NCBI RefSeq assembly: GCF_900188205.1
Contig: NZ_FZOH01000006.1
Location: 124,001 to 188,000, forward strand
Direction of reading: 5' to 3'
Length of the DNA stretch: 64,000 nucleotides
Source of the DNA: Geodermatophilus saharensis
Lineage (GTDB): Bacteria; Actinomycetota; Actinomycetes; Mycobacteriales; Geodermatophilaceae
In this document: one piece after another, positions 57,371 through 64,000 of the stretch
How the letters are laid out: every line of letters starts with the position of its first letter
Numbering within the stretch: the stretch's first letter is position 1
The notes under the pieces: generated by a model
Seen by the model: only the letters and a program-made list of their open reading frames with translations
Told to the model about the DNA's origin: nothing
The model's database searches: none
Program-made: the position numbers and the translations under genes

Positions 57371-58702
57371 GTGAGGCACCCGTCAGCCACTGCCGGGCCA
57401 CCTCGGCCGCACCGGAGCGCGATCCGCCCGGGCCCGGGGACCGCCCGGAGGGTGCTGCTCCGGCTCCTGCTGGTGCTCGTCGCCACCACGGGGCTCGCCG
57501 TACTGGTCCCCGGCGTCGCCAGCGCCGAGGGCGAGCAGGTCCTCGGGACGCTGCAGACCAGCCGGTCCGGCCCCATCGAGGGCGTCGAGGTCACCGTCAC
57601 CACCGCCGCCGGCGAGGAGGTCGACAGCGTCGAGAGCGACGAGGACGGCCGCTGGTCGGTCGACCTGCCCGGCCCCGGCGACTACGTCGTCACCATCGAC
57701 GAGGACGGCCTGCCCGAGGGCGTGAAGCTGGCCGGCACCGACAACCGCACGGTCACCGTGGCCGAGGGCCGCCGCGAGCCGGTGATCATCGGCCTCGAGG
57801 ACGGCAGCCGGGGTGGCGGCGGAGGCACCGTCCGCGCCGTCCAGCTCCTCGTCGACGGCATCCGCTTCGGCCTGCTGATCGCGATGGCCGCCGTCGGCCT
57901 GTCGCTGATCTTCGGCACCACCGGGCTGACCAACTTCGCGCACGGCGAGCTGGTCACCATCGGGGCGATCGTCGCCTGGTACGTCAACGTGCAGGGCGGC
58001 GTCCCGCTGATCCCCGCCACGCTGATCGCGATGGTGGCCGGCGCCGCCGTCGGCGCACTCAACGAGCTGGGGCTCTGGCGGCCGCTGCGCCGCCGCGGCA
58101 CCGGGCTCATCGCGGCCCTGGTCGTGTCCATCGGCCTGTCGCTGCTGCTGCGCTACCTCATCCAGATCGTCTACGGCGGGCGGTCGAGCCCGTACCAGGT
58201 GGCCACCGGCCGCGCCGTCGACTACGGCCTCTTCACGCTGACCAACCGGGCGCTCATCTCGATCGTCGTGTCGGTCGTCGTCCTGGTGCTGGTGGCCGTG
58301 ATGCTCCAGCGCACCAAGATCGGCAAGGCCATGCGGGCGGTCGCCGACAACCGCGACCTCGCGGCGTCGTCGGGCATCGACGTCAACCGCGTGATCCTCG
58401 TGGTCTGGATGATGGGCGGCGCGCTGGCCGCCCTGGGCGGCGTCCTGCTGGGGTTGTCCGACCAGGTGCAGTGGGACATGGGCTTCCGCCTGCTGCTGCT
58501 CATGTTCGCCGGCGTCACCCTCGGTGGCCTCGGCACCGCCTACGGCGCCCTCGTGGGCAGCCTGATCGTGGGGATCTTCGTGCAGATGTCGACCCTCGTC
58601 ATCCCGAACGACGTCAAGTACGTCGGCGGGCTGCTGCTCCTGATCGTCATCCTCGTCATCCGGCCCCAGGGGATCCTGGGCAGCCGCGTCCGGATCGGCT
58701 GA
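57371..58702 (+). CDS. livH: Branched-chain amino acid-type ABC permease LivH with extra N-terminal secreted domain
   Basis: A 443-residue permease. The C-terminal two thirds (about 155-443) are the LivH core with eight or so helices and the family segment GLSLIFGTTGLTNFAHGELV and the cytosolic loop ALAALGGVLLGLSDQVQWDM. Before it are a signal peptide (1-52, cleavage after VASA) and a beta-rich external domain of about 95 residues (GPIEGVEVTVTTAAGEEV, then SDEDGRWSVDLPGPGDYVV) resembling a carboxypeptidase-regulatory/Ig-like fold. That domain is not part of ordinary LivH. GTG start after GGGAGG. First gene of livHMGF. Confidence 0.85.
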   Translation: MRHPSATAGPPRPHRSAIRPGPGTARRVLLRLLLVLVATTGLAVLVPGVASAEGEQVLGTLQTSRSGPIEGVEVTVTTAAGEEVDSVESDEDGRWSVDLPGPGDYVVTIDEDGLPEGVKLAGTDNRTVTVAEGRREPVIIGLEDGSRGGGGGTVRAVQLLVDGIRFGLLIAMAAVGLSLIFGTTGLTNFAHGELVTIGAIVAWYVNVQGGVPLIPATLIAMVAGAAVGALNELGLWRPLRRRGTGLIAALVVSIGLSLLLRYLIQIVYGGRSSPYQVATGRAVDYGLFTLTNRALISIVVSVVVLVLVAVMLQRTKIGKAMRAVADNRDLAASSGIDVNRVILVVWMMGGALAALGGVLLGLSDQVQWDMGFRLLLLMFAGVTLGGLGTAYGALVGSLIVGIFVQMSTLVIPNDVKYVGGLLLLIVILVIRPQGILGSRVRIG

Positions 58703-58705
58703 GCC

Positions 58706-59704
58706 ATGGGTGACCTCCTCGACGCGCTGGCCGTCGCCCTCAAGGCCGGCCTCGGCTTCCAGGCGATCTTCTTCGCGCTGCTGGCCATCGGCATCAACGT
58801 GCAGTTCGGCTACGCCGGGCTGCTCAACTTCGGGCAGATCGCCTTCGCCCTGGTCGGTGGCTTCGGCATCGCCATCTCGGTGAGCAAGTGGGGCCTGAAC
58901 TTCTGGGTCGGCGTGGTCATCGGCCTCGCCGCCGCCGTCGTCCTCGCCCTGCTGCTGGGTCTGCCGACCCTGCGGCTGCGCGCGGACTACCTGGCCATCG
59001 CCACGATCGCCACGGCGGAGGGCCTGCGGCTGCTGTTCCGTTCGGTGTCGGCCACCCCGGTCACCAACGGCACCCGCGGCCTGTCGGCCTTCAACGGCGA
59101 CTTCATCGCCCTGGCCCCGTGGGCGACCAACGAGCGGTACCGGATCCTCGGCACGAGCTGGTCCGGCGGTGAGCTGTGGGTCGCCCTGGTCGGCTGGGCC
59201 CTGGTGATCCTGTCCTGCCTGCTGGTGTGGGCGCTCATGCGCAGCCCGTGGGGCCGCGTGCTCAAGTCCATCCGCGAGGACGAGGACGCCGTCCGCTCGC
59301 TGGGCAAGAACGTCTACGTCTACAAGATGCAGGCCCTCGTGCTCGGCGGGATCCTCGGCGCCCTCGGCGGCATGGTCTACGCCGTCGGCACCGGCTCGGC
59401 CGTCCCCGACCAGTACCAGAACGCCAACACGTTCCTGGCCTACGCCGCCCTGATCCTCGGCGGTGCCGCCCGGGTGCTCGGGCCGGTCGTCGGGTCCATC
59501 GTGCTGCTGTTCATCCTGCAGTTCGCCGACACCGGCCTGCGGCTGCTCATCGACAACGGCGTCATCCCCGAGGGGCTGCTGTCCTCCACCGACGTGGCAC
59601 AGATCCGCTTCGTGCTCGTGGGTATCGGGCTCATGCTGTTGCTGGTCTTCCGGCCACAGGGCATCTTCGGCGACCGACGAGAGGTGATGCTCGATGCGCG
59701 CTGA
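58706..59704 (+). CDS. livM: Branched-chain amino acid ABC transporter permease LivM
   Basis: A 332-residue permease with about nine helices and the LivM signatures GYAGLLNFGQIAFALVGGFG and TLRLRADYLAIATIATAEGL. It pairs with LivH to form the transmembrane channel. ATG 3 nt after livH's stop; its 3' end overlaps livG by 11 nt. Confidence 0.92.
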   Translation: MGDLLDALAVALKAGLGFQAIFFALLAIGINVQFGYAGLLNFGQIAFALVGGFGIAISVSKWGLNFWVGVVIGLAAAVVLALLLGLPTLRLRADYLAIATIATAEGLRLLFRSVSATPVTNGTRGLSAFNGDFIALAPWATNERYRILGTSWSGGELWVALVGWALVILSCLLVWALMRSPWGRVLKSIREDEDAVRSLGKNVYVYKMQALVLGGILGALGGMVYAVGTGSAVPDQYQNANTFLAYAALILGGAARVLGPVVGSIVLLFILQFADTGLRLLIDNGVIPEGLLSSTDVAQIRFVLVGIGLMLLLVFRPQGIFGDRREVMLDAR

Positions 59705-60770
59705 CCCCAACCCCCACGGCGCCACGGCGTCCGGCTCCGGCGCCTCGGGTGCCGGAGCGGCCGGCGCCGGCGCGCCGGGGGCCCCCCTGCAGAAGCCCTC
59801 CGGCTGGCAGCGCGGGGACGCCCCCCAGCGGCTGGCGCAGACGGCGCTGCGGGACGTCCCCTGGGAGGTCGGCGTCGCCAAGCCCGACCCGGCGATCGTC
59901 GTCGACGGCGTGACCCGGACCTTCGGCGGCCTGACGGCGGTCGCCGTCGACCACCTCGAGGTGCAGCGCGGCGGCATCACCGGCCTGATCGGGCCCAACG
60001 GCGCGGGCAAGACGACGCTGTTCAACCTGCTGACCGGCTTCGACCAGCCCAACACCGGCAGCTGGGAGTTCGACGGCCGGCCGCTGGGCAAGCTCGCGCC
60101 GCACCAGGTCGCCCGCCTCGGCGTCGTCCGGACCTTCCAGCTCACCAAGGCGCTGTCCCGGCTGACCGTGCTGCAGAACATGCTGCTCGGCGCCCAGGGG
60201 CAGCGCGGGGAGAGCTTCTGGCGCGCCCTGGTGCCCGGCACCTGGAAGTCGCAGGAGCAGGCCAACACCGAGAAGGCCATGGACCTGCTGCGGCGGTTCA
60301 AGCTCGACGCCAAGAAGGACGACTTCGCCGGAACCCTCTCCGGAGGTCAGCGCAAGCTGCTGGAGATGGCGCGGGCGCTGATGAGCGACCCGAAGGTCGT
60401 CATGCTCGACGAGCCGATGGCCGGGGTGAACCCCGCCCTGACGCAGAGCCTGCTCGGCCACGTCAAGGACCTCCGCGAGGAGGGCATGACGGTGATCTTC
60501 GTCGAGCACGACATGGACGTCGTCCGGGACATCAGCGACTGGGTCGTCGTCATGGCCGCCGGCAGGGTGATCGCCGAGGGGCCGCCGGAGTCGATCAGCC
60601 AGAACCAGGCCGTCGTCGACGCCTACCTCGGGGCGCACCACGACGCGCCGCTCACCGTCGAGGAGGAGGACCAGGTCCTCGCCCAGGCCGAGCGGGAGAT
60701 CGCCCGCGAGGAGCACGGGGGCGGCGACGTGCTCCGGTCCGACACCACCACCGGGAAGGGCGAGCGATGA
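59694..60770 (+). CDS. livG: Branched-chain amino acid ABC transporter ATP-binding protein LivG
   Basis: A 358-residue ATPase with Walker A LIGPNGAGKTT, signature LSGGQRKLLEMARAL and Walker B VVMLDEPMAGVNP, and a long Gly/Ala N-terminal extension (1-65) not found in standard LivG. The C-terminal 35 residues are a charged tail. Powers the permease together with LivF. Starts inside livM (overlap 11 nt); stop overlaps the livF start (ATGA). Confidence 0.92.
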   Translation: MRADPNPHGATASGSGASGAGAAGAGAPGAPLQKPSGWQRGDAPQRLAQTALRDVPWEVGVAKPDPAIVVDGVTRTFGGLTAVAVDHLEVQRGGITGLIGPNGAGKTTLFNLLTGFDQPNTGSWEFDGRPLGKLAPHQVARLGVVRTFQLTKALSRLTVLQNMLLGAQGQRGESFWRALVPGTWKSQEQANTEKAMDLLRRFKLDAKKDDFAGTLSGGQRKLLEMARALMSDPKVVMLDEPMAGVNPALTQSLLGHVKDLREEGMTVIFVEHDMDVVRDISDWVVVMAAGRVIAEGPPESISQNQAVVDAYLGAHHDAPLTVEEEDQVLAQAEREIAREEHGGGDVLRSDTTTGKGER

Positions 60771-61621
60771 GCGAGCCGCTGTTCGAGGTCGACGAGTCCG
60801 GCGAGGACCGCACCCGCGCCGACGAGGTCGCCACCACGACGACCCTCTCCCCCGCGGAGAAGGCCGCCACCCGCGAGGAGCACCTGCGCCTCGCCGAGGG
60901 GGCCCTGGTCCGCGCCGACGACCTCGTCGCCGGCTACGTGCCCGGCGTCAACATCCTGCGGGGCTGCGACTTCTACCTGCAGGACGGCGAGCTGGTCGGG
61001 ATCATCGGCCCCAACGGCGCCGGCAAGTCCACGCTGCTCAAGACGCTGTTCGGGCTCATCCCGGTGCGCTCGGGCTCGGTGAAGCTGCGCGGGGAGGACA
61101 TCACCTCCGCGCCGGCGCACCGGCTGGTGTCGATGGGCGTGGGGTACGTGCCGCAGAACAACAACGTGTTCCCCTCGCTCACCATCGAGGAGAACATGCA
61201 GATGGGCGTCTACCTGCGGCCGCGGACGTTCAAGGAGCGCTTCGACTACGTCATCGACCTGTTCCCCCTGCTCGGGGAGCGCCGCAAGGGCAAGGCCGGG
61301 GCGCTGTCGGGCGGTGAGCGGCAGATGGTCGCCATGGGCCGGGCGCTGATGATGGACCCGTCGGTGCTGCTGCTCGACGAGCCGTCGGCCGGCCTCTCCC
61401 CCGCCTACCAGGACGAGGTGTTCATCCGCTGCCGGCGGATCAACGCCACCGGCGTGTCGATCATCATGGTCGAGCAGAACGCCCGCCGCTGCCTGCAGAT
61501 CTGCGACCGCGGCTACGTGCTCGACCAGGGCCGCAACGCCTATACCGACACCGGCCGGTCGCTCATGACCGACCCGAAGGTGATCGAGCTCTACCTGGGG
61601 ACCCTCGCCAAGGCGCAGTGA
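60767..61621 (+). CDS. livF: Branched-chain amino acid ABC transporter ATP-binding protein LivF
   Basis: A 284-residue ATPase with Walker A IIGPNGAGKST, signature LSGGERQMVAMGRAL and Walker B VLLLDEPSAGLSP, and about 40 N-terminal residues beyond the usual LivF start. Last gene of the transporter operon, followed by a hairpin. ATGA overlap with livG. Confidence 0.92.
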   Translation: MSEPLFEVDESGEDRTRADEVATTTTLSPAEKAATREEHLRLAEGALVRADDLVAGYVPGVNILRGCDFYLQDGELVGIIGPNGAGKSTLLKTLFGLIPVRSGSVKLRGEDITSAPAHRLVSMGVGYVPQNNNVFPSLTIEENMQMGVYLRPRTFKERFDYVIDLFPLLGERRKGKAGALSGGERQMVAMGRALMMDPSVLLLDEPSAGLSPAYQDEVFIRCRRINATGVSIIMVEQNARRCLQICDRGYVLDQGRNAYTDTGRSLMTDPKVIELYLGTLAKAQ

Positions 61622-61652
61622 TCCCCGGAGGGTCATCCCTCCCGACCGACGA

Positions 61653-61686
61653 CGAGGCCGGCGTCCCCCTGGGGGCGCCGGCCTCG
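61653..61686 (+). terminator. liv operon terminator
   Basis: Arms 61653-61668 and 61671-61686, complementary with one G-U pair, 32 nt after the livF stop. Confidence 0.65.
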
Positions 61687-61795
61687 CTCGTGCTGCCCGC
61701 CGGAGGGGCCGGCCGCCCGCGCTCTGGCCGCCCGCCGGTCGTAGGCCGGCCGGAGGCACGGTCCGGGCGTGGGCGGCGACCACCACCCCCACCGC

Positions 61796-61837
61796 GCGGT
61801 GCCCGACCTCGCGCCGCGGGGTGGGGTCGGGCACCGC
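61796..61837. other. Additional hairpin in the livF-livK gap
   Basis: Perfect 13-bp arms GCGGTGCCCGACC (61796-61808) and GGTCGGGCACCGC (61825-61837), 16-nt loop. The 525-bp gap between livF and the convergent substrate-binding gene holds three hairpins and no gene-like frame. This middle one could be a stable small RNA or a leftover of a lost gene. Confidence 0.4.
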
Positions 61838-62060
61838 AGGGCGAGGCCGCGGCGTCCGACGGGATCCCCGGGGCCTGGATGCCCGCGAGCGACGGCGCCC
61901 GGTCGGACCCGCCGCGCGTCCCCCGCCGCCGTCCCGGCTCACCGAAGCGCGTCCTGACTCGGCGTCGACGGTGAGCCAGGACGCGGCACGATCAGCCGAC
62001 CTGATCGGGCCGCGGACGACGAGGGGTGCCCGGCCGACCGTGGCGCCCCCGGACAGCACA

Positions 62061-62094
62061 GCGGCCCGGCACCCCCTGAGGGGTACCGGGCCGC
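62061..62094 (-). terminator. Terminator of the substrate-binding protein gene
   Basis: Arms 62061-62075 and 62080-62094 with one mismatch and a CTGA loop, about 50 nt beyond the stop codon of the substrate-binding lipoprotein. Confidence 0.6.
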
Positions 62095-62146
62095 TGCCGG
62101 GTGGTGCGAGGTCAGCGCTGTGCTCTCACAGCGCTCCCAGGGGCGC

Positions 62147-63490
62147 TCAGCGCTGCGGGCCGATGCCCTGGTCGTTGAGGCCCTGCAGGATCCGGGAGGA
62201 CTCCTCGAAGCCGATCACGATGATGGCGTCGGGGTTGAAGTCGACCATCTGCTGGACCTCGGCGTCGAAGTTCGCCGCCTGCGGGTCGTAGGTGATGGAG
62301 ACGATGTCGTCCTCGGACAGACCGGCGCTGACCAGGTTGTTCTTGGTGTTCTCCGCGAGCCCGGTGCCGTAGGGGTCGTTGAGGGCCAGGATCCCCACGG
62401 TGTTGTTGCCGTCGGCGATGATCAGGTCGGCGAGGGCGCGGGCCTGCAGCGTGTCCGGCGGGGCGGTGCGGAAGTACAGCCCGTTGTCGTTGTAGGTGGT
62501 GAACTGGTCGGACGTGTTCGCCGGCGAGAACTGCAGGACACCGGCGCCGGTGATGGCGTCGATGACCGTGAGGCTCACGCCCGAGGACGCCGCACCGATG
62601 ATCGCGTTGACGCCCGACTGCAGCAGCCGGTCGACGGTCTGGGTGGCGGTGTCGGTCGAGGCGTCACCGGAGTCACCCTCGACGAGCTGCACCGGCTGGC
62701 CCAGGACGCCGCCCGCGGCGTTGATGTCGTTGAGCGCGAGCTTGGCGCCGGCGACCTCCGGCGGGCCGAGGAAGGCCAGGTTGCCGGTGAGCGGCAGCAG
62801 CGTGCCGATGACCAGCGGGCCACCGGTCGTGCCCGCCGGGGCGTACGCCGGGCCCTCGTTGGTGGTGGCGTTGGCCTCGTCGCCGGCGATGACGAACTCG
62901 GTGGCGTCGCTGTCGAGCTGGTTGTCCTCGCCGAACTGCAGCAGGCCGAAGCTCGCCGCGGCGGGCTCACCGGCGTCGGTGAAGGCCAGCGGGCCGGAGA
63001 TGCCGTCGTAGTCGACGTTGCCGCCGGCGTTGATGATGTCCAGGCAGGCCTGGAAGTCCTCGCACTTGTCGCCGCCGGCGGTGATGCCGTTGACGTACTC
63101 CTTGAAGACGTTGGCGTCGTTGGTCCCCGCCGCCTGGGCGGCCAGCGCGGTGACGATCACCGCGTCGTAGGTCTCACCCGCGTAGTTGTAGTCCTGCAGG
63201 TTCGGGTCGACCTCGAGCAGCCGGTCGGTGAAGTCCGAGCCCAGCTCGGTGAGGGGCGTGGTGCCCTTCATGCCGGCGAGCGCGCCCTGCTCGGTGAAGT
63301 CCTCACCGAGGGCGTTGCCCATGTTGCCGTCGGTGCCGTAGATGTTGACCTGCTTCTCGCCGCTCGCGGCGTCGCCGCCACCGCCGGAGCCGCCGCCGGA
63401 GTCCCCGTCGTCCCCGCCACCGCAGGCGGTGAGGGCGATCAGGGCGGCGGACGTGACGGCGATGCTGCGGGCGTAGGTACGCGTGCGCAT
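62147..63490 (-). CDS. livK: Circularly permuted LivJ/LivK-type substrate-binding lipoprotein
   Basis: A 447-residue lipoprotein (lipobox LTAC, Cys23) that should deliver substrate to the adjacent LivHMGF transporter. The domain order is unusual. After a Gly/Asp-rich linker, residues about 47-202 match the C-terminal half of a LivJ/LivK protein (QVNIYGTDGNMGNALGEDF, AGETYDAVIVTALAA, GGDKCEDF, YDGISGPLAFTDAGE). A linker at about 203-224 leads to residues 225-447, which match the canonical mature N-terminal half (PLVIGTLLPLTGNLAFLGP, INAAGGVLGQ, GAASSGVSLTVIDAITGAGV) and end at GFEESSRILQGLNDQGIGPQ, exactly where the first segment would continue. The reading frame is intact with a good start and terminator, so this is a likely circular permutation rather than a frameshift. 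Confidence 0.88.
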   Translation of the reverse strand: MRTRTYARSIAVTSAALIALTACGGGDDGDSGGGSGGGGDAASGEKQVNIYGTDGNMGNALGEDFTEQGALAGMKGTTPLTELGSDFTDRLLEVDPNLQDYNYAGETYDAVIVTALAAQAAGTNDANVFKEYVNGITAGGDKCEDFQACLDIINAGGNVDYDGISGPLAFTDAGEPAAASFGLLQFGEDNQLDSDATEFVIAGDEANATTNEGPAYAPAGTTGGPLVIGTLLPLTGNLAFLGPPEVAGAKLALNDINAAGGVLGQPVQLVEGDSGDASTDTATQTVDRLLQSGVNAIIGAASSGVSLTVIDAITGAGVLQFSPANTSDQFTTYNDNGLYFRTAPPDTLQARALADLIIADGNNTVGILALNDPYGTGLAENTKNNLVSAGLSEDDIVSITYDPQAANFDAEVQQMVDFNPDAIIVIGFEESSRILQGLNDQGIGPQR

Positions 63491-63523
63491 CCAGCAACTC
63501 CCAGTTGTCGTACGTCGGGTGCG

Positions 63524-63550
63524 GGGGCCGGGCGCGGACGCGCCGGCCCC
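63524..63550 (-). promoter_or_regulatory. Leader hairpin upstream of the substrate-binding protein gene
   Basis: Arms GGGGCCGG (63524-63531) and CCGGCCCC (63543-63550), 34 nt before the start codon on the minus strand. It could affect mRNA stability; no -10/-35 pair was convincing in the rest of the 164-bp gap. Confidence 0.35.
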
Positions 63551-63654
63551 GTCAGTCCGCAGAACGTAACCGCTGCCACAGGGAGCGGAAGTGGGTGAGC
63601 GGAGACCGTGACGAGGTCGTGACCTGCACCGATCACCCAGGTCACCGCTGTCAC

Positions 63655-64000
63655 TCAGGAGGGTGCACCCTCCGCGGGGGTCGCGTCGCCGGCCAGGATG
63701 CGCTCGGCCAGCGCCTTCATCGACGTCCGCTCGTTCATGGCCGTGCGCTGGATGGACCGGAACGCCTCGGCCTCGGTGATCCCCTGCTCGGCCATCAGCC
63801 GGCCCTTGGCCTTCTCGACGACCTTGCGGGCCTCGAGCCGCTCCTCGAGCGTGCGGACCTCGCCGTCGAGGGCGGAGATCTCGGTGAACCGGGCGCGCGC
63901 CACCTCGATCGCCGGCACCAGGTCGTTCTTGGAGAACGGCTTGACCAGGTAGGCCATGGCGCCGGCGTCACGGGCCCGCTCGACCAGCTCGCGCTGGCTG
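63655..64000 (-). CDS. pdtaR: ANTAR-domain response regulator, C-terminal part (PdtaR-like)
   Basis: The 5' end lies beyond the window; about 115 codons are seen. They contain the end of a receiver domain (AGAMAYLVKPFSKNDLVPAI with the conserved Lys-Pro) and a complete ANTAR domain (LEARKVVEKAKGRLMAEQGI, then ITEAEAFRSIQRTAMNERTS). ANTAR regulators bind two-hairpin RNA motifs and prevent termination when phosphorylated. Location near polA, rpsA and coaE matches the mycobacterial pdtaR neighbourhood. The translated frame continues upstream of the internal Met at 63957. Confidence 0.88.
   Translation of the reverse strand, partial: SQRELVERARDAGAMAYLVKPFSKNDLVPAIEVARARFTEISALDGEVRTLEERLEARKVVEKAKGRLMAEQGITEAEAFRSIQRTAMNERTSMKALAERILAGDATPAEGAPS

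Follow-up and report, generated by a model that had tools for sequence, protein, structure and literature searches.

The gene at positions 62,147 to 63,490 of the window, by which we mean the whole 64,000-nucleotide stretch of Geodermatophilus saharensis DNA that was analysed, encodes a circularly permuted LivK-type (Peripla_BP_6) substrate-binding protein. The overall explanation that we consider very probable is that this is a working permuted binding lipoprotein of the adjacent livHMGF transporter, that it arose in place by duplication, and that such genes had several origins, with two cuts, within the Actinomycetota. The features of the locus are collected in Table 1.

Table 1. Features of the permuted binding-protein gene and the adjoining liv genes, in window coordinates.
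Feature	Position	Strand	Basis or remarks
livH permease with N-terminal CarboxypepD_reg-like domain	57371..58702	+	PF02653, PF13620
livM permease	58706..59704	+	PF02653
livG ATPase	59694..60770	+	PF00005, PF12399
livF ATPase, convergent with the permuted gene	60767..61621	+	PF00005
Inverted repeat with arms of 17 nt, in the gap between livF and the permuted gene	62059..62096	.	Hairpin without T run; nearest feature to a terminator
Permuted LivK-type substrate-binding lipoprotein, whole gene	62147..63490	-	447 aa, ATG start; PF13458 and BLASTP
N-terminal half of an ordinary LivK, placed last: residues 225-447	62150..62818	-	PF13458 2-217; BLASTP
Linker 204-224 bridging the original C- and N-termini	62819..62881	-	Predicted ordered
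C-terminal half of an ordinary LivK, placed first: residues 46-203	62882..63355	-	BLASTP; ANF_receptor 226-350
Gly/Ser-rich tether, residues 24-45	63356..63421	-	Mostly predicted disordered; variable across aligned rows
Signal peptide to putative lipobox Cys23 (LTAC), residues 1-23	63422..63490	-	From sequence

Searched in its native order, the protein matched PF13458 (Peripla_BP_6) in one stretch, with residues 226-445 aligned to profile positions 2-217 of 343 at 125.4 bits (curated cut-off 31.7). Residues 46-206 searched alone gave no match to PF13458 even at E 0.1, and matched positions 226-350 of ANF_receptor, the C-terminal part of that profile, with 25.8 bits at a cut-off of 25.4. When the sequence was rotated in silico, the PF13458 match extended to positions 2-328 of 343 and rose to 140.2 bits; the ANF_receptor match, which was split into two stretches with 86.9 bits in the native order, covered positions 6-350 of 353 with 94.9 bits. 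A full-length collinear match to PF13458 was absent in the native order and gained only after rotation, and the profile search that had been suggested for the claimed swap came out in its favour. The suggested dot plot was run as BLASTP against three collinear relatives (L065, L099 and L178), each of which returned two blocks in reverse order: one for the N-terminal half with 62-63% identity (E 2e-99 to 6e-90) and one for the C-terminal half with 47-50% identity (E 1e-48 to 2e-44). Against one of these relatives, for example, residues 205-445 aligned at 63% and residues 50-204 at 47%. These results confirm the circular permutation put forward in the original prediction, whose block limits (about 47-202, a linker, and 225-447) agree with the matches found. 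Among the 60 PDB matches listed, no chain had the permuted order, and the best stretch of each fell within residues 207-445. Annotation that is bound to sequence order detects only part of such permuted proteins.

The open reading frame was recovered on the minus strand as claimed, with an ATG start and 447 codons. Cys23 showed no variation in a 50-row alignment of permuted sequences, and from the general lipobox rule we take the LTAC motif to be a lipobox. From residue 205 onward, the linker was aligned by BLASTP with the N-terminal spacer of the collinear L065 protein (its residues 47 on), and not with L099 or L178. Asp54, Ser303 and Thr326 were invariant in the 50 permuted rows and correspond in alignments to loops of structures that bind leucine and amino acids, in which we assume them to contact the ligand; in the permuted order, Asp54 now comes from the opposite end of the chain to Ser303 and Thr326. 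The terminator that had been described as intact was not recovered, as a consensus scan of positions 61,600-63,650 revealed no site that resembles a terminator and has a T run. On the other side, an ANTAR-domain fragment (63,655-63,999, minus strand) lies upstream of the gene at the window edge.

Structure prediction, which had also been proposed as a check, yielded a confident AlphaFold2 fold of the window protein (50 rows; pLDDT 88.6, pTM 0.85). Values of pLDDT below 50 were confined to residues 1-42, and the block means across the linker region (201-230) were 94, 94 and 97. In the predicted model, helix 431-440 ends the chain and strand 49-53 begins the folded part, so that the cut falls in a helix-strand loop. 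This cut, referred to here as type A, opens the chain ahead of the strand NIYGTDG. A second cut, type B, leaves the NIYGTDG strand and the next helix C-terminal and starts the chain about 20 residues later, at LxGMKGT; the AlphaFold2 model of a type B protein (14 rows) had a pLDDT of 81.8 and a pTM of 0.78, and both models, read from their secondary structure and confidence values, place the cut between a helix and a strand. By the topology of the leucine/isoleucine/valine-binding protein, both cuts presumably lie in lobe II. The protein would then be two-lobed, with lobe II as the opened lobe, and the chain would make a fourth lobe crossover. Foldseek, which is order-bound, had its best match in a LivK-type structure; it spans 222 columns and so covers about half of the model.

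The same order was found widely in the family of the window's genome, a check on related genomes that the original prediction had suggested. The full-length permuted gene was present in 92 of 112 genomes from 12 genera, a partial one in three, and no match in 17. The 92 full-length carriers include four single-contig assemblies (G043, G047, G048 and G061), and named relatives with the gene include Blastococcus, Geodermatophilus, Klenkia and Modestobacter. For the N-terminal half, dN/dS ranged from 0.13 to 0.32 in six pairs; for the C-terminal half it ranged from 0.16 to 0.44 in five of the six pairs and was 0.96 in one. An assembly artefact or a decayed gene, which nothing favours except the oddness of the order, can practically be dismissed: an assembly error is ruled out by the open frame with the same order in 92 of the 112 genomes, single-contig ones included, and a pseudogene by this presence together with values of dN/dS below 1 in all 12 half comparisons, one of them near 1. 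In a single relative (L163, 4818-6185), part of the C-terminal half looks frame-shifted with respect to its relatives, through either sequencing error or decay. Three genomes of the window's family (L113, L114 and L115) encode, as a second liv binding protein, a collinear one that is deeply diverged and accompanied by a separate livHMGF.

We classified 200 frames from relatives (183 distinct sequences) by block order into 122 of type A, 20 of type B and 58 collinear, counts that do not represent frequencies, since the frames were chosen by similarity to permuted queries. Type A also occurs in Micromonosporaceae, Nocardioidaceae and other Actinomycetota, and type B in Acidimicrobiia and in family f68. 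Among named loci, the best 80 of at least 587 comprised 63 with the window's cut, 14 with the second cut and three collinear. In an even sample of genomes of the phylum, the permuted form was matched over most of its length in 8 of 396, and any match at E 1e-20 was seen in 70; in an even sample of the class, the corresponding counts were 11 of 394 and 151 (the window's genome included).

The liv neighbourhood was compared for the 162 frames from L043 on, in fetched stretches of about 5 kb per side where the contig allowed. The complete set of livH, livM, livG and livF was contained in these stretches for 49 of 58 frames with the collinear order, for 40 of 84 of type A and for 16 of 20 of type B. 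Where livF was in view, it was convergent with the binding-protein gene in 51 of 54 collinear, 44 of 47 type A and 16 of 17 type B frames (60 of 64 permuted frames in all); the gene was on the same strand as liv in L113-L115, L128, L129 and L131, and divergent in L058 and L059. The permuted and collinear forms are the same gene in the same place in most lineages, and the convergent arrangement with livF that both kinds share indicates that the order was swapped in place. The CarboxypepD_reg-like domain of LivH was matched in 86 of the 106 loci with a livH match, and 12 of the 20 lacking it are cut at an edge. This N-terminal extracytoplasmic domain characterizes the liv family in question and could be what the binding protein docks to; a link between the domain and the permutation was rejected, as collinear and permuted loci have it alike.

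The main exception to this shared locus is formed by the Micromonosporaceae-type permuted copies (L044-L051 and the Micromonosporaceae rows in L169-L202), around which no liv genes were found in the fetched stretches. A search for LivH in eight genomes of this type found a protein of 50-51% identity elsewhere in two g71 genomes and none above 35% in the other six. Possibly the transporter was lost and the binding protein kept, and these copies may have a different role. These copies, which also sit on a long branch, are what would support a binding protein detached from its transporter and now serving as a sensor or scavenging lipoprotein. We regard that reading as improbable, given that the arrangement of the collinear orthologues is kept in the window and in the great majority of the first-cut (44/47) and second-cut (16/17) frames with livF.

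To count the origins, we brought the sequences into the collinear arrangement and built trees from them. Collapsing rows that shared 78% identity or more reduced 200 rows to 81, and dropping L113-L115 gave 80 rows, to which five were added for the 85-row set; in an 88-row tree, L111, L113-L115 and L122 were dropped. From L001-L042, 11 rows were used. The 85-row tree needs five changes of order, and across 200 bootstrap trees the 5-95% range of changes was 3-3 for type A and 2-2 for type B. In the 80-row tree, type A falls into three groups: a Geodermatophilaceae group, which also takes in the Micromonosporaceae type and a single f13 genome; a Nocardioidaceae group, which includes Nonomuraea and is joined by Streptomyces in the 85-row tree and the half trees; and uncultured Actinomycetes genomes (f49, f39). 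Type B falls into two, Acidimicrobiia and family f68. Trees of the separate halves each need six changes and recover nearly the same permuted groups with weaker support; in the N-half tree the window's group takes two changes, and in the C-half tree the MAG group does.

AU tests on the 88-row tree rejected a single clade that would unite all permuted rows (p 1.8e-123), and likewise one that would unite all type A rows (p 2.5e-4). A single type B clade was not rejected (p 0.11 with 88 rows; p 0.081 in the later 85-row analysis), nor was one clade of the Nocardioidaceae and uncultured type A groups (p 0.089). The 88-row tree itself had six changes, with the Micromonosporaceae type split from Geodermatophilaceae by a deciding fork with bootstrap 93 and SH-aLRT 26. 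We discarded a separate origin of the Micromonosporaceae type, as one clade for the Mycobacteriales type A rows was not rejected in the same tree (AU p 0.43) and the two join, with five changes, once the named loci are added. On these trees, five origins is the point estimate; the secure minimum, with reversals left out, is three, because the AU test leaves both the joined type B groups and the two joined type A groups unrejected. Neither the recurrence nor a second cut site featured in the original prediction.

Instead of repeated gain, one ancient permutation might have been followed by reversion to the collinear order, or the permuted form might have spread by transfer. The unrejected joinings of some lineages (p 0.081-0.43) lean this way, as do the Streptomyces and Nonomuraea copies, which group with Nocardioidaceae rows in a six-row group that is intact in both half trees and which are encoded on the strand of liv. 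However, the rejection of one clade for all permuted rows and the existence of two distinct cut sites oppose a single ancient event; the deepest branches of the tree are collinear, and reversion would require the same rare mechanism. We therefore hold this alternative to be rather unlikely and favour repeated permutation. Regarding the copies on the same strand as liv in Nonomuraea and Streptomyces (L128, L129 and L131), L128 and L129 fall within the Nocardioidaceae permuted group, and their placement and strand suggest transfer; L131 is in no tree of its own.

Of the two principal models for how permutations arise, one invokes duplication (PMC3320104). Duplication followed by loss of the outer halves, the route named in the original prediction, would fit the present gene, because the gene is in place, a single signal peptide is left, and the linker could be aligned to the N-terminal spacer in one of the three collinear relatives, L065. 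The intermediate that this route predicts was not found: none of the frames that contain the 200 classified genes was a fused or half-duplicated form, and a search of 376 genomes for the C-terminal half gave 58 matches in 53 of them, never two in one frame, a sample that leaves absence unproven. For L083 and L084, two collinear binding-protein copies lie about 1 kb apart adjoining livHMGF, the kind of tandem duplication from which a permutation could start. Otherwise, each half might have come from a different paralogue, with the two then fused in the wrong order. Such a chimaera would be in line with the lower conservation of the C-terminal half (47-50% against 62-63%) and with the different nearest collinear rows of the two halves (L101 and L071 for the C-terminal half, L064 for the N-terminal half). 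Yet the two half trees recover nearly identical permuted groups, and the lower identity is explained by faster change in the C-terminal half, which is seen across the whole 85-row set with its collinear members (its end branches have a median of 0.32, against 0.19 for the N-terminal half). From the half trees, we judged a chimaera of paralogues to be very improbable.

In the explanation that we prefer, tandem duplication in place, fusion of the copies and loss of the outer halves would be the most likely route. The linker of about 20 residues would thereby connect the original termini, and the new opening of the chain would fall in a loop of the second lobe, leaving the membrane tether to hang from lobe II rather than lobe I. 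The protein would fold to an ordinary two-lobed type I binding protein, the cleft of which would hold an amino acid or similar ligand for delivery to LivHM; this proposed function is deduced from the gene's surroundings, its predicted fold and the conservation of the ligand loops. Within Actinomycetota, permutation of this single orthologue appears to have happened several times, with the chain cut at one of two sites. More tentatively, and with the odds somewhat against it, permutation may have occurred in place about five times, always in the same lobe and in two neighbouring loops, because a tether on lobe II aids docking to LivHM or the extra LivH domain.

The window protein resembles LivJ/LivK (PF13458) in sequence family, in the residues of the ligand loops and in the adjoining livHMGF, and has a lipobox like the Gram-positive members; it differs in the order of its halves and in its tether, which would be on the other lobe. 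No permuted LivK appeared in the titles or abstract beginnings among the matches listed from the open-access literature, in which TpMglB-2 was the only natural permuted type I ABC binding protein. TpMglB-2 (Tp0684), from Treponema pallidum and its relatives, has been proposed as 'Type Ic / Cluster Bc' in the sections of its report cited here (PMC4990184). According to these sections, TpMglB-2 is, like the window protein, a lipidated type I ABC binding protein that is circularly permuted in nature and has a transporter linked to it, and it shows the fourth lobe crossover that our model would give the window protein. TpMglB-2 is opened in the N lobe with the strand order of the C lobe unchanged, whereas the window protein appears to be opened in lobe II. 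The N-lobe permutation that characterizes Type Ic / Cluster Bc was not found here: the cut lies past PF13458 position 217, in what we take to be lobe II by the topology of LIVBP. TpMglB-2 binds glucose, whereas the ligand here would be an amino acid or similar. The permuted part of TpMglB-2 is 13% identical to its E. coli equivalent, and an origin from a different gene was considered for it (PMC4990184); the halves of the window protein are 47-63% identical to those of collinear orthologues.

Permutation has likewise been explained by duplication in DNA methyltransferases and in saposin/swaposin, which are not transporter binding proteins (PMC3320104). For the methyltransferases, that paper says that intermediates are documented, in contrast to the window-type gene, for which none was found in the frames and genomes sampled. 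The authors of the Tp0684 study suggested that permutation is possibly an adaptation to membrane anchoring, for what the sections used here describe as one family with one topology (PMC4990184); the window-type gene has two cut sites and, by our estimate, several origins. Natural permutation of a type I binding protein was already known, and the new element seems to be its recurrence in place. Since permuted and collinear orthologues share their arrangement in related bacteria, several times over, such matched natural pairs make it possible to compare how permutation affects folding, the binding of ligand and docking to the transporter.
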